Part shown: in pieces, positions 24,330 through 32,591 of the stretch
Position numbering within the stretch: position 1 is the first letter of the stretch
Layout of the letters: every line of letters starts with the position of its first letter
Source: Candidatus Peribacteria bacterium
GTDB lineage: Bacteria > Patescibacteriota > Gracilibacteria > UBA1369 > LOWO2-01-FULL-3
Length of the DNA stretch: 35,192 bases
NCBI GenBank assembly: GCA_943358175.1
Contig: CALRGV010000011.1
Location: forward strand, 1-35,192
Direction: 5' to 3'
Made by a program: the position numbers and the translations under genes
The notes under the pieces: generated by a model
What the model was told of the DNA's origin: nothing
The model's input: only the letters and a program-made list of their open reading frames with translations
Databases searched by the model: none

Positions 24330-25007
24330 TTACTCCTCCAATAATTTCTTGAAATTCTTATCCCAAGTAGCTAATCGAGACTTCAACAAATATTTTTTGG
24401 CACTAAAATCCTTCTTTTTCCATGGCTTAACGTCCAAAATTCCATTCACTGCCAAGTTTGCTACATCATAACTATATTCATCAGAATCTTTCACATCTTT
24501 ATACATACATTTACTTTTCGATTTGCACACATCCGGCACATCCACCGCTTCGATCATCTCTTCATCCACTAAAATATCATGAGCCACCGTGAAATATCTT
24601 GCCGCTTCTTGCCTAGTGACAAAATCATCAACACCGAAATCACCATCAACATTTGGCAACATCACTCCCTTTTCAATTACAAAACAAATAGCTTCCGCAT
24701 TTGGAGTCGTTTCATCAACATCAGAAGCACAATTGGTATCACTAGATGAATCCTCGTCCTCATCCTCATCCTCATCCTCATCCTCGTCTTCGTCTTCATC
24801 TTCGTCTTCGTCTTCATCCTCATCTTCATTAATAAGATACTGAGCTATCACCACAGCAACATCAGTACGACTAACTTTGGCCCCCTTGTCATCAGTTTTT
24901 ATAACCTTTCCCATCAAATCCTCACCATTTATAACAAAATTAGCTACACCAAAGGCCACTAGCACAGCAACAACCAATACTGAAAAGATTTTTAGATTTT
25001 TATTCAT
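24330..25007 (-). CDS. Secreted acidic protein with SLH-like segments and a Glu-Asp repeat
   Basis: This 225-residue protein has an N-terminal hydrophobic signal or anchor (about 7-24), a short segment VSRTDVAVVIAQYLI, a run of 13 Glu-Asp pairs (26 residues), and then two stretches that look like S-layer homology repeats (VTRQEAARYFTVAHDIL and YDVANLAVNGILDVKPWKKKDF). SLH domains bind cell-wall polymers. The acidic run splits one SLH-like part from the others and may bind calcium or act as a spacer. The SLH call rests on the pattern of T/S-R-x-E/D-A and the G-I-x-x-x-x motif and is moderate. The promoter shows an extended -10 at 25034-25042. Confidence 0.65.
   Translation of the reverse strand: MNKNLKIFSVLVVAVLVAFGVANFVINGEDLMGKVIKTDDKGAKVSRTDVAVVIAQYLINEDEDEDEDEDEDEDEDEDEDEDEDEDSSSDTNCASDVDETTPNAEAICFVIEKGVMLPNVDGDFGVDDFVTRQEAARYFTVAHDILVDEEMIEAVDVPDVCKSKSKCMYKDVKDSDEYSYDVANLAVNGILDVKPWKKKDFSAKKYLLKSRLATWDKNFKKLLEE
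24750..24827 (-). repeat. 78-bp hexanucleotide array coding for 13 Glu-Asp pairs
   Basis: Thirteen units GA(A/G)GA(T/C) in a row. Synonymous third positions vary (five GAG-GAT and four GAA-GAC units, mostly in blocks), so the array is old enough to have changed at silent sites, yet could still expand or shrink in steps of six bases without breaking the frame. Confidence 0.9.
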
Positions 25008-27719: not shown

Positions 27720-27748
27720 CGTATAGTTTATAACTCTAAATTTGACAA
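27720..27748 (-). promoter_or_regulatory. Phosphofructokinase gene promoter (leaderless)
   Basis: The minus strand has TTGTCA (27743-27748), 17 nt, TATACG (27720-27725). The start codon follows 6 nt later. The -35 overlaps the -35 of the divergent aroF promoter almost exactly. Confidence 0.65.
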
Positions 27749-27770
27749 ATGTATTCTATCTAAATATTAT
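27742..27770 (+). promoter_or_regulatory. aroF operon promoter
   Basis: TTGACA (27742-27747), 17 nt, TATTAT (27765-27770). The predicted start near 27777 lies 18 nt before the leader peptide ATG. Confidence 0.8.
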
Positions 27771-27794
27771 TATAGTACAACCATAAATAATTCA

Positions 27795-27878
27795 ATGTTA
27801 GAAGAAAGCCAAAAAATCAGACCTCTCCTTAAAGAAAATTCTTTTGGCTGGGCTTTCTTTTACTTTTATTTTAGCTAA
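27795..27878 (+). CDS. Aromatic-rich leader peptide of the aroF attenuator
   Basis: A 27-codon frame starting ATG, TTA, GAA, GAA and ending in SFGWAFFYFYFS before TAA. Eight of its last 11 residues are aromatic: five Phe, two Tyr and one Trp. It lies 75 nt upstream of the DAHP synthase gene, the first enzyme of aromatic amino acid synthesis. Leader peptides rich in the end-product amino acid are the hallmark of ribosome-mediated attenuation (trpL, pheL). Here all three aromatic products are represented. No Shine-Dalgarno sequence is visible, as for most genes in this window. It is too short to be found by usual gene callers. Confidence 0.85.
   Translation: MLEESQKIRPLLKENSFGWAFFYFYFS
27802..27859 (+). 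promoter_or_regulatory. Attenuator hairpin 1:2 spanning leader peptide codons
   Basis: AAGAAAGCC (27802-27810) pairs perfectly with GGCTTTCTT (27851-27859). The right arm covers part of the Trp, Ala, Phe, Phe codons, so translation would open this stem. It fits the pause or 1:2 hairpin of a trp-type attenuator; the loop is large (40 nt), so its stability is modest. Confidence 0.5.
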
Positions 27879-27883
27879 CCCCC

Positions 27884-27919
27884 GAGGCCTTTAGATTAAT
27901 TCTCTTATCTACAAGCCTC
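27884..27919 (+). promoter_or_regulatory. aroF antiterminator hairpin
   Basis: GAGGC (27884-27888) pairs with GCCTC (27915-27919), continued by TAGAT (27892-27896) with ATCTA (27907-27911) and a small internal loop. It takes up the 5' arm of the terminator, so the two cannot coexist. Its 5' arm starts 6 nt after the leader stop codon, where a ribosome at the stop would cover it. Confidence 0.75.
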
Positions 27920-27935
27920 AAAAGAGGCTATTTTT
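27914..27935 (+). terminator. aroF attenuator terminator
   Basis: AGCCTC (27914-27919), loop AAAA, GAGGCT (27924-27929), A, five T, then ATTT. It ends 18 nt before the aroF start. A full intrinsic terminator between promoter and gene is evidence of regulated termination. Confidence 0.85.
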
Positions 27936-27953
27936 ATTTATAACCCCAAAACT

Positions 27954-28967
27954 ATGATTATCGTAATGCAAGCAGGCGCACCAAAAACTGACGCCACAAG
28001 AATTATCGAAGAATTACAATCTCAAGGTTTTACACCCATGCCACTATACGGGGTAGAACGCACTGTTATTGCTGTTATTGGTGAAGAAAGAGACTTGAGC
28101 ATCGGACACCTCGAAGCTATGGCCGGCGTGGAAAAAGTAATGCGTGTAGTTCATCCATATAAACTTGTCAGCAAAGAAACCAAACACGACCCCAGCATTA
28201 TCGAAGTAAACGGTATCAAAATCGGCAGCAATCAATTAGCAATAATCGCTGGACCATGTTCCGTAGAATCTGAAGATCAAATGGAAGAAGTCACGCGCGA
28301 ACTCTCAAAAGTTGGAGTAAAAATCCTCCGTGGTGGCGCTTATAAACCACGCACAGGACCATACTCTTTTCAAGGTCTTGGAAAACCTGGACTGGAAATA
28401 ATGCGTAAAGCTGCGGACCGCTACGGTATGGCCACAATCACCGAAGTTCTCGATATTCGCGATCTGGATAATATTGCAGCCCAAAGCGACATGATCCAAG
28501 TCGGCGCTCGCAACATGCAAAATTTCGAATTACTCAAAGAGCTTGGCAAAATAAAAAAACCGGTTTTATTGAAACGCGGACTTTGTGCCACAATCGAAGA
28601 ATTACTTCTAGCAGCGGAATACATTATGTCTCACGGAAATCCTCAAGTAATTCTTTGCGAACGCGGCATTCGCACTTTCGAAACAGACACTCGCAACACA
28701 CTCGCTCTCGCCACAGTGCCACTGGTAAAAGAATTAAGTCATTTACCAATTCTCGTAGATCCATCTCATGCGACCGGCAAAAGATCTCTTTTGGAACCAA
28801 TGAGCAAAGCCGCTATTGCCTGCGGAGCGGATGGCATTTGTATCGAAGTTCATCCAAATCCGGAGAAAGCATTATCCGATGCTCAACAACAAATTACGCC
28901 AGCCAGATTCGCGGAAATATTAGAAAGTTTAAAACCAATTATTGCGGCAGTGGGCAAGACATTATAA
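27954..28967 (+). CDS. aroF: 3-deoxy-7-phosphoheptulonate (DAHP) synthase, AroF/AroG type I-beta
   Basis: This 337-residue enzyme joins phosphoenolpyruvate and erythrose 4-phosphate, the entry step of the shikimate pathway. Residues 1-70 form a ferredoxin-like (ACT-like) domain that in Thermotoga maritima binds tyrosine or phenylalanine for feedback. The barrel follows, with AGPCSVE (99-105), [17 protein letters not shown] and the metal ligands C102, H272, E298 and D309, at the same numbers as I recall for the T. maritima enzyme. So the gene appears to be controlled both by attenuation and by feedback on the protein. It is followed by aroB 25 nt later. Confidence 0.96.
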
Positions 28968-28992: not shown

Positions 28993-30039
28993 ATGAAAAT
29001 AATTACCGCTCACCACAAAAAAATTATCGACGATTCCTACAAAGTCTTTATAGAACAAGGCGTTATTAACAAACTACCAAGCCTTTTAAAAAAAATAAAT
29101 TTAGGGCAAAAATATGCCATAATTACCGACTCGAAGACTTCAAAAATTCATGGGATTAGTATTTCGAAATTTCTCAATAAAAATGGAATTAAAAACGAAA
29201 TTTTTTCTTTTGAGGCCGGTGAAAAATCCAAAACTTTAAAAACAATTGAAGAACTTTCTGAAGCAATGGTGGAAAAAGGTTTTAATCGTAAAGATTCCAT
29301 CATTGCACTTGGCGGAGGAGTAGTTGGAGACATAGCCGGATTCCTCGCTTCAATTTATTTACGTGGAATTCCGTTTGTGCAAATACCTACTACCCTACTC
29401 GCTATGGTTGATTCGGCCATCGGTGGAAAAACTGGTGTAGATCTCAAGGCCGGTAAAAATTTAATTGGCACAATCACTCAACCTAAAGCCGTTTTTATCG
29501 ATATAAATTTTCTAAAAACGTTACCGGAAAACCAGATTAGAAGTGGCCTTGGAGAAATCATTAAATACGGAGTGATTAAAGACGAAAAATTCTTCACCTA
29601 TTTAGAAAAAAATCTTTCAAAAATTTTCGCTCACGATGAAAAAGTTCTCAACTATATCATCAAAAAATCCATCGACATTAAAGTAGAGGTAGTTGAAAAC
29701 GATGAGAAAGAAAGCAAAAATCGCATGATCCTCAATTACGGTCACACCTACGGACACGCATTGGAAAAACTTTCCAATTACACATTGCTTCACGGCTACG
29801 CAATTAGTATTGGTATGGTCATCGCCAACCAAATGGCCGTAGAAAAAAAACTATTAAAACAAAAAGATGCCGATCGTATCAAAGCCTTATTTGAAAAAAC
29901 TGGACTACCAACTTACAGCATGCACAAGCCAACAATCAAAGACCTTATGACCGACAAAAAGAGCGATGGTAAATCCATCAATTTCATTTTACCAACAAAA
30001 ATTGGCAACGCAATTATTTACAATCAAAAATTTAATTAA
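28993..30039 (+). CDS. aroB: 3-dehydroquinate synthase
   Basis: This 348-residue enzyme converts DAHP to 3-dehydroquinate, the second step of the shikimate pathway, using NAD and a divalent metal. Visible motifs are GGGVVGDIAGF (NAD loop), IPTTLLAMVDSAIGGKTGVD, LGEIIKYGVI with the first metal ligand Glu, NYGHTYGHALE with a His ligand, and LLHGYAISIGM with the second His ligand. I start at the ATG at 28993; an upstream in-frame start would overlap aroF. It follows aroF by 25 nt and is clearly in the same operon. Confidence 0.96.
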   Translation: MKIITAHHKKIIDDSYKVFIEQGVINKLPSLLKKINLGQKYAIITDSKTSKIHGISISKFLNKNGIKNEIFSFEAGEKSKTLKTIEELSEAMVEKGFNRKDSIIALGGGVVGDIAGFLASIYLRGIPFVQIPTTLLAMVDSAIGGKTGVDLKAGKNLIGTITQPKAVFIDINFLKTLPENQIRSGLGEIIKYGVIKDEKFFTYLEKNLSKIFAHDEKVLNYIIKKSIDIKVEVVENDEKESKNRMILNYGHTYGHALEKLSNYTLLHGYAISIGMVIANQMAVEKKLLKQKDADRIKALFEKTGLPTYSMHKPTIKDLMTDKKSDGKSINFILPTKIGNAIIYNQKFN

Positions 30040-30665: not shown

Positions 30666-32591
30666 ATGAAATCAAAAACAATTCAACCTCGCCCAAAAAA
30701 TCTAAGTATTCCTGGTTCCAAAAGCCATAGCAATCGAGCCTTGATTTTAGCAACTTTATCCAGTGGAACAACGACACTGAAGAATGTAGCAATTTGTGAT
30801 GACACAAATTATTTAGTGATAAATTTGAGAAAACTTGGAGTTAAAATTCAGCAAAATGACACAACCTTAAAAATTAACGGAGTTAATAAAAAAGGTAAAT
30901 TAAATTTCCCTAAATTCTCAAAACCAATCACCCTTTACACCGGAAACGCAGGCACCACTACACGCTTTCTGGCCGCACTCGCACCATTAACTGGCAATGA
31001 GATAATTATAGATGGAGATTCACGCATGAAAGAGAGACCAATTGAGGAATTGGTAAAAGCCCTAAATAAACTCGGAGCAAAGATACAAAGCACAAATGGC
31101 TGTCCCCCATTACATATTTTTCCAAAAAATTTGGAAGGAGGAACAATCAATCTTCCAGGCAATATTAGCAGCCAGTATCTTTCAGCACTTTTAATGATTG
31201 CCCCCTATGTAAAAAGAAAAATCACAATAAATATTGAACAAAAACTTTATTCAAAACCATACGTAGACATGACATTAGAGATAATGAGGCAATTTAAGAT
31301 CAAAACATTGAACAAAAAATTTAGACAATTCTCGGTTAATCCAATCAAAACTCTTTCAACTCAAAACAAACCAAATATTTTCACAATAGAAAGTGATGCC
31401 TCTTCCGCTTCTAACTTTGGAGCTTACGCCGCTCTTCATCCGCAAAAGCCAATTCTACTAAAAAACATTCACAAAGATTCTCTGCAAGGAGATATAAAAT
31501 TTCTAAATTATTTAAAAAAAATGGGCTGCAAAATCACTGAACAAAAAGGCAAAAACTCAGGCACATTAGTTCAAGGTCCCACAAATTTAAAATCTCTCAG
31601 GACCATAGACATGAACGAAACCCCGGATCTCGTCATGACTTTCGCAGTGATTGCCTTATTCACACCAGGCAAAACTCTCATCACAAATATTGCCAATTTA
31701 CGAATCAAAGAAACTGATCGCATACAAGCCTTGGAAAATGAATTAAAAAAACTCGGAGTCACAGTCAAAACCGGCAAGGACTGGATAGAAATTCAAGGAC
31801 TTGTCAAAAATCACAAATTAGAAAGCCCCGCCGGCGGGGAATTAAAGTATGAATTGCAAACAAGTCAAGATGATGAGCGACTACAAAAAAAAAGATTCTT
31901 CATCTCCACCTACAACGACCATCGCATCGCCATGGCCTTCGGCATTTTAACAGATTTACTTCCAAATTTAAAAATTGAAAATCCATCCTGCGTTTCCAAA
32001 AGCTATCCAAATTTCTGGAAAGATTTGTCGAAATTAACAGATCAAAAAGTCCAGAAACAAGTGAATCATAGAATGGACATTCCTAAAAAAAACATCATTC
32101 TCACCGGCCTTCGCGGCAGTGGTAAAACTAAAATCGGCACAATGCTCGCCCTTAAATTAAAAATGAATTTCATAGATATCGATGAAGAAATTGAAAAGGA
32201 AGAAAACGCAAGTATCCCGGACATTGTATCCGTCCGCGGCTGGGAATATTTCCGTGCGGTAGAAAGTAAAGTCACACAAGAAATCGCTAAGTTAAAAAAT
32301 ACTGTCATCTCCACCGGTGGAGGCACAATTCTCGATCGTGAAAACGAAAAAGCCCTGAAAAAAAATGGCAAAATCATCTATCTTTATGTGAAACCAGAAA
32401 TAGCCGCAAAACGCATCCTGAATAGCAAAAATCGCCCACCTCTCACCAACAAAGAATCAGTTGAAGAAGAAATGAAGCACCTCTACAAAGAACGCAATGG
32501 CCGTTACTGCGAAAGTGCCAACCTGATTTTTGAACGCAGCGAAAATGCGGAAAAGGACTGCAAAGAAATCATCAAAAAGCTTGTAAGATAA
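30666..32591 (+). CDS. aroA-aroK: Fused EPSP synthase and shikimate kinase (AroA-AroK)
   Basis: Residues 1 to about 460 are EPSP synthase: PGSKSHSNRAL (16-26), GNAGTTTRFLAAL (93-105), DGDSRMKERP (116-125), SSQYLSALLM, NETPDLVM with catalytic D321, RIKETDRI with E349, and TYNDHRIAMAF. Residues about 473-641 are shikimate kinase: P-loop GLRGSGKT (481-488), DIDEEIE (504-510), RGWEYFRAVES (524-534), STGGGT (549-554) and a lid region with R590 in NRPPL. The two enzymes act on consecutive steps: the kinase makes shikimate 3-phosphate and the synthase uses it, so the fusion order is reversed relative to the pathway. A 35-residue linker region joins them. Confidence 0.94.
   Translation: MKSKTIQPRPKNLSIPGSKSHSNRALILATLSSGTTTLKNVAICDDTNYLVINLRKLGVKIQQNDTTLKINGVNKKGKLNFPKFSKPITLYTGNAGTTTRFLAALAPLTGNEIIIDGDSRMKERPIEELVKALNKLGAKIQSTNGCPPLHIFPKNLEGGTINLPGNISSQYLSALLMIAPYVKRKITINIEQKLYSKPYVDMTLEIMRQFKIKTLNKKFRQFSVNPIKTLSTQNKPNIFTIESDASSASNFGAYAALHPQKPILLKNIHKDSLQGDIKFLNYLKKMGCKITEQKGKNSGTLVQGPTNLKSLRTIDMNETPDLVMTFAVIALFTPGKTLITNIANLRIKETDRIQALENELKKLGVTVKTGKDWIEIQGLVKNHKLESPAGGELKYELQTSQDDERLQKKRFFISTYNDHRIAMAFGILTDLLPNLKIENPSCVSKSYPNFWKDLSKLTDQKVQKQVNHRMDIPKKNIILTGLRGSGKTKIGTMLALKLKMNFIDIDEEIEKEENASIPDIVSVRGWEYFRAVESKVTQEIAKLKNTVISTGGGTILDRENEKALKKNGKIIYLYVKPEIAAKRILNSKNRPPLTNKESVEEEMKHLYKERNGRYCESANLIFERSENAEKDCKEIIKKLVR

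Follow-up and report, generated by a model that had tools for sequence, protein, structure and literature searches.

A probable ribosome-mediated transcription attenuator with Phe, Tyr and Trp codons before the DAHP synthase gene of a Candidatus Peribacteria genome and its Gracilibacteria relatives

Leader-peptide attenuation is known from Proteobacteria and Actinobacteria, to which a survey of 2010 added the Firmicutes (PMC2965389). A direct precedent for the element described here is the aroR-aroF region of Corynebacterium glutamicum, where ribosome stalling is reported to raise aroF transcription (Neshat et al. 2014, via PMC11802643; for the leader see also PMC4046766) in response to Phe, and not Tyr, limitation (PMC11802643). 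In both cases a leader with aromatic codons, a Phe-Tyr-Phe run in the C. glutamicum account, lies before the gene for DAHP synthase; however, the described part of aroR contains no Trp, whereas the leader considered here has Phe, Tyr and Trp codons together. Since C. glutamicum belongs to another phylum, the two arrangements are probably convergent. The trpL and pheL leaders of Escherichia coli have a similar architecture, in that a short leader containing a series of cognate codons precedes an antiterminator that overlaps an intrinsic terminator, the 5′ arm of the antiterminator being masked once a ribosome has reached the stop codon. The E. coli trp and pheA attenuators each control a terminal branch, whereas the present one would act on the common first step of the pathway. 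In open-access papers, no literature was found that couples CPR bacteria or Patescibacteria with amino-acid leader-peptide attenuation.

The window, by which is meant the whole stretch of 35,192 nucleotides that was analysed, comes from a genome of 1.38 Mb that is 99% complete, and the features of interest are collected in Table 1. A preliminary description had placed a promoter, a leader, an antiterminator, an overlapping terminator and the start of aroF around positions 27742-27953, and direct reading together with the ORF listing bears out each of these elements. The leader ORF begins 25 nt past the −10 box, is predicted to be translated and ends in SFGWAFFYFYFS, such that Phe, Trp or Tyr account for eight of its last 11 codons. 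The arms of the antiterminator pair at 11 of 13 positions, with two mismatches, and the terminator stem is of 6 bp only; the whole leader fold is more stable than its shuffles (z −2.6). A phosphofructokinase-like gene lies upstream on the opposite strand, while downstream the gene under putative control belongs to the very pathway that the leader would sense, DAHP synthase being followed by aroB and an aroA-aroK fusion, in the C-terminal part of which shikimate kinase models match below their cut-offs. Both of these further genes are probably under the attenuator as well. Elsewhere in the window, a protein predicted from 24330-25007 on the minus strand contains an extended (Glu-Asp)n tract, the repeat length of which is likely to be variable.

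Table 1. Positions of the attenuator elements and of the genes behind them in the window
Feature	Position	Strand	Remarks
Sigma-70-type promoter, TTGACA-17-TATTAT	27742..27770	+	11/12 match
Leader peptide ORF, 27 codons, MLEESQKIRPLLKENSFGWAFFYFYFS	27795..27878	+	Stop TAA 27876-27878
Leader-internal hairpin, 5′ arm	27799..27810	+	Pairs with 27851-27862, 12 bp
Leader-internal hairpin, 3′ arm	27851..27862	+	Within aromatic codon run
Last leader codons, UAGCU	27872..27876	+	Predicted pairing with 27926-27930 (GGCUA), closes antiterminator
Antiterminator 5′ arm, GAGGCCTTTAGAT	27884..27896	+	
Antiterminator 3′ arm, ATCTACAAGCCTC	27907..27919	+	Final 6 bases double as the terminator 5′ arm
Intrinsic terminator, AGCCTC-AAAA-GAGGCT plus ATTTTTATTT	27914..27939	+	Stem 27914-27929, U-tract 27930-27939
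aroF, DAHP synthase (3-deoxy-7-phosphoheptulonate synthase), B. subtilis type, 337 aa	27954..28967	+	ATG at 27954; NF006421 483 bits, TIGR01361 403 bits, both above cut-off
aroB, 3-dehydroquinate synthase	28993..30039	+	Next gene, same direction; TIGR01357, 374 bits
aroA-aroK fusion, EPSP synthase plus shikimate kinase domain	30666..32591	+	TIGR01356, 391 bits

From the arrangement of these elements and from the folding and conservation described below, the region is very probably a ribosome-mediated transcription attenuator, which would tune DAHP synthase to the charged tRNAs of Phe, Tyr and Trp. RNA polymerase would pause past the leader-internal hairpin while a ribosome enters the leader. 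A shortage of an aromatic tRNA would stall the ribosome in the run FGWAFFYFYF, upon which the antiterminator (27884-27919) could form, closed by the pairing of the last leader codons with the 3′ arm of the terminator, and aroF would be transcribed. When aromatic tRNAs are plentiful, the ribosome would reach the stop at 27876 and cover the 5′ arm of the antiterminator, such that the terminator halts transcription before aroF. Presumably all three amino acids count in this respect, and termination would be expected to take place in vivo.

T-rich intergenic DNA can mimic a leader of this kind, its Phe and Tyr codons arising by chance next to an unrelated terminator before aroF. Both strands of the window were scanned for short ORFs with at least seven Phe, Trp or Tyr in their last 14 codons followed by an intrinsic terminator. 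Phe codons are indeed raised by the T-richness of the DNA, and four ORFs with aromatic tails were found, three of which have no terminator; the remaining one is the aroF leader. The combination of such an ORF with a terminator is, however, expected at a mean of 0.03 per window (30 dinucleotide shuffles), and it is conserved in divergent relatives with arms that vary together (see below), such that chance is scarcely credible as an explanation. The promoter carries no such weight by itself, since a scan of the window found three against 4.7 expected, which is not above chance; a TTGACA-type promoter nevertheless stands at the equivalent relative position in close relatives of the locus.

The preliminary description had also proposed the logic of the switch, in which a stalled ribosome leaves the antiterminator free to form and a ribosome at the stop codon lets the terminator form. 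This behaviour is reproduced when the RNA is folded according to the position of the ribosome. For each locus the RNA left free was folded for two ribosome positions, a stall at the first Trp codon (or the first aromatic codon) and arrival at the stop, each ribosome being taken to cover 15 nt beginning with the A-site codon, and the terminator probability was taken as the chance that the five bases preceding the U-tract pair locally. The folds are equilibrium predictions, the kinetics of the polymerase lying outside the model. In the window the computed probability is 0.01 with the ribosome stalled at Trp and 0.99 with the ribosome at the stop; in other words, the 5′ arm of the antiterminator is computed to be free in the first case and masked in the second. 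Across 43 of 49 curated loci (six without a clear U-tract having been excluded) the mean rises from 0.15 to 0.91, a change of +0.76 as against +0.095 in shuffles, where the best gain among 40 replicates was +0.17. The gain exceeds 0.3 in 39 of the 43, a slightly conservative count since in one locus (L003) the U-tract was placed inside the antiterminator loop. The helix between the last leader codons and the 3′ arm of the terminator has a probability above 0.5 in 22 of the 43 loci, compared with 15% in shuffles, and in about half of the loci it is accordingly predicted to lock both arms of the terminator during a ribosome stall. With the ribosome stalled at the final aromatic codon, the terminator of the window is still predicted to form (0.98), from which it follows that not all eight aromatic codons need be sensors.

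The wiring of the leader differs from that of trp. The stem inside the peptide, previously labelled a 1:2 stem, does exist, with 12 bp, but has no arm in common with the antiterminator, ending 21 nt upstream of it with a U-rich stretch after the stem, and is therefore not a trp 1:2 stem; a role as a trp-like protector is ruled out on the same grounds. In E. coli trp, the 3′ arm of stem 1:2 also serves in the 2:3 antiterminator, so that lack of translation leads to termination, whereas the separate stem of the window does not compete with the antiterminator and an untranslated leader should therefore read through, with no ‘superattenuation’ predicted. Indeed, without a ribosome the terminator probability is 0.01 in the window (the mean of the loci being 0.39), which is to say that the antiterminator would win and that termination would require an arriving ribosome. 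Equivalent stems of differing sequence occur in several relatives, for example AAAGTAAG/CTTACTTT and AGAAGCC/GGCTTCT, and across the loci they are moderately more stable than shuffles (mean z −1.3, with 14 of 32 below −1.5). The stem is probably an RNA polymerase pause hairpin, which would let the ribosome catch up.

The leader lacks a Shine-Dalgarno sequence, as had been remarked at the outset, although this is no peculiarity of the leader: by eye, a clear Shine-Dalgarno sequence precedes none of about 20 gene starts in the window, which rules out its absence as a specialty of the leader. The 3′ end of the 16S rRNA (7728, minus strand) keeps the anti-Shine-Dalgarno CCUCC. An element resembling TTAACC is found repeatedly at related aroF loci, 10-20 nt upstream of the starts of both aroF and the second small ORF described below.

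Whether homologous upstream regions keep aromatic codons and hairpins had been put forward as the refuting test of the proposal, and it has now been run; they are kept in the family, in much of the order and in parts of the class. The sequence before aroF is available for 24 genomes of the family. An aromatic leader and the switch occur together in 18 of these, the window's leader thereby having counterparts in 17 others; in G019 a leader is present but its U-tract is degenerate, and the remaining five are without a leader. The leader tails within the family have little in common beyond the aromatic run (SFNWAFFYFLANY, PFGWAFFYFS, TGWAFFYSFFG, TFSWNFFYAFFS, QTWAFFNFYFYT and YAWAFFYSFFG). Elsewhere in the order, further families have ADWGFFYFYF, FVWAYFYFTNF, QKWGFEYFYFPSP and SWGFEFYFYFY, and in the class beyond it NYFFYGFYFKVR, where the hairpins are CCGC/GCGG, MYAWFAFYFFYFAR and AFWAFYFFPEHRV occur. 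In 49 leader loci picked by eye across the class there are 306 aromatic codons in the leader frame and 102 and 134 in the other two, a comparison that is supporting only, the loci having been chosen partly on aromatic content. The intrinsic terminator before aroF is likewise kept in relatives.

The 5′ arm of the antiterminator (A), the shared arm (B) and the 3′ arm of the terminator (C) vary in concert between loci, with motifs such as GAGGC, GAGAC, GAGAT, GCATGAG, GAAAGT, GAGGAGT, AGTGC and GCGGA. Identical A and C with a complementary B, over at least 5 nt, were found in 18 of the 49 loci and in 2.7% of shuffles. This triple-arm test and the ribosome-position folding stand in place of a column-based count of covariation, which was dropped because a MAFFT alignment of 13 leaders misplaces the 3′ arm of the terminator. 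The same freedom of sequence bears on a ligand-binding riboswitch, or a leader bound by a TRAP- or TrpR-like protein, that would use the antiterminator and terminator with the ORF as a by-product. Repressor control of aromatic genes probably exists here, to judge from a trpR-like gene seen by eye directly before the genome's trpE. Hairpin sequences that vary freely while pairing and aromatic codons persist are, however, the opposite of a conserved aptamer; by eye, no conserved TrpR-like palindrome stands at the aroF promoter of relatives; and the leader matches no attenuator or riboswitch family in Rfam (Trp_leader, Phe_leader, T-box and others), its matches being to unrelated families at chance level, nor did a scan of the whole window give a gathering-score match there. 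Taken with these points, such a leader is very unlikely, and attenuation by the translating ribosome is preferred.

Outside the class, four of 78 aroF loci pass an automatic scan (for example L057 of Mesoaciditoga, and L079 and L092 of Syntrophobacterales), the same scan passing nine of 24 in the family. The kind is therefore not restricted to Gracilibacteria, and attenuation of aroF may be widespread beyond them. As a separate observation, short aromatic-rich ORFs, some with terminators, are seen before aroF in Brachyspira (L078 and L108, both with SIYAYYFFYYGV upstream of aroF), Mesoaciditoga (L057), Deferribacteraceae (L071) and Syntrophobacterales (L079 and L092).

Regulation of this type had been thought unexpected in a reduced CPR genome. 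This expectation does not hold for the genome in question, which encodes a PheA-TyrA fusion and TrpE, the terminal enzymes for Phe/Tyr and Trp, as well as the trpR-like gene; a cell that makes these amino acids for itself can be expected to regulate the first step. No attenuator was seen before its own PheA-TyrA fusion or trpE. Within the family, 19 genomes match prephenate dehydratase (PF00800), TyrA (PF02153) or both above the cut-offs, and 18 of them keep the attenuator intact, compared with none of the five that match neither (Fisher p 1.4e-4, kinship ignored). The count is indicative, some of the five being incomplete and the aroF match being without its N-terminal part in G007 and G022; the five come from four genera. 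In one genome (G029) prephenate dehydratase is present and the leader deleted. The losses of the switch in the family coincide, on this indicative count, with losses of the Phe/Tyr branch enzymes. At the level of the order the rule holds less strictly, and some dehydratase-bearing genomes (G051, G052, G043, G047 and G036) show no leader. In one genus (g18) the codons themselves appear to follow the enzymes: G024, with TyrA and no prephenate dehydratase, has the leader tail WISDLYAYLLYILGVR with Tyr and Trp codons and no Phe, while its sister G027, with both enzymes, has WVADLYFYFFDLLGMR with Phe codons present. A partial exception is G026, which keeps two Phe codons yet has no dehydratase, and members of the genus without a clear TrpE still keep Trp codons in the leader.

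These patterns weigh on a further explanation, that of a constitutive or growth-coupled terminator, in which the amino acids of the leader are incidental and the hairpins merely lower aroF or couple it to the general rate of translation. In its favour, translation of the leader per se would move the switch, the terminator probability of the ribosome-free window being low. Against this, the aromatic codons stay in frame though other leader residues differ, the leader is lost along with the Phe/Tyr branch in the family, and Phe codons are gone in the Tyr-only relative, all of which makes growth coupling improbable, if somewhat less so than a riboswitch, and favours the sensing of aromatic tRNAs.

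Control of the trp genes offers some parallel observations. A trpR-like repressor gene precedes trpE at three loci (L152 of G000, L154 of G014 and L159 of G008), and the trpE promoter region of G014 contains the palindrome GTACTATTGCAATAGTAC; a Trp repressor is probable in Gracilibacteria. Downstream of the trpR-like gene, in the interval from about 120 to 14 nt upstream of trpE, locus L158 of G020 carries a trp leader, MIRTNTTWWNWNQKSRF, accompanied by GAGTCG/CGACTC/GAGTCG-T7; to judge by its sequence, it would give the window's family a second attenuator, one that is specific for Trp.

In many relatives, and not in the window, a second small ORF (ORF2) starts just past the terminator and has its stop 19-58 nt upstream of aroF (L009, L010, L013, L014, L016, L019, L020, L021, L029, L111, L116, L117, L119, L121, L123, L124, L125, L128, L130, L131, L132, L168 and L169), the distance from the leader stop to aroF being roughly 170-230 nt, as against about 75-92 nt elsewhere. 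Its N-terminal part is variable, while Tyr lies within the last ten codons in 23 of 23, with motifs such as AYRY, AYRN, AYQNN, CLYRR, YLYRR and WLYRR (METIATKLFAPVEFKRYLYRR in L124 is an example), and there are 31 Tyr codons in frame compared with 2 and 1 in the other frames. Two loci of the class (L168 and L169) have ORF2 with no first leader seen. In one family of the class, f34 (L172, L173, L174, L175, L177, L183 and L186), a strong hairpin follows the terminator (z −2.8 to −6.7, mean −3.9, seven loci), its Tyr codons being paired with the bases immediately 5′ of the aroF start, and the region mostly holds a Tyr-rich ORF, for example MHFNKFGYYRFY (L177) and MHFNNFGYYRSYRPAKRGY; from its predicted fold this resembles translational attenuation that senses Tyr. 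For the order to which the window belongs, folding predicts no hairpin of this sort (mean z 0.1), and ORF2 there would be compatible with an undescribed kind of peptide, serving in coupling or ribosome arrest. Two consecutive small ORFs before one gene are also found in ermBL/ermBL2, although that system is one of drug-induced translational attenuation and not of amino-acid sensing (PMC8274638). It is conceivable, if rather less than an even prospect, that Gracilibacteria have two serial leader ORFs at the entry to the aromatic pathway, the first a transcription attenuator sensing Phe, Trp and Tyr, and the second a Tyr-motif ORF acting on the translation of aroF.

The kind of switch is already known, and what is new is the lineage, the wiring and, in relatives and not in the window, the conserved Tyr-motif ORF2, which is possibly a new regulatory layer. 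Because loss of the leader, and in part the codons of the leader, track the aromatic amino acids that are made, the leader could be used to gauge biosynthetic independence from the genomes of uncultured bacteria. The attenuator being wide in a class of uncultured bacteria with small genomes, fine feedback control of amino-acid synthesis would appear to be kept where the pathway is kept.
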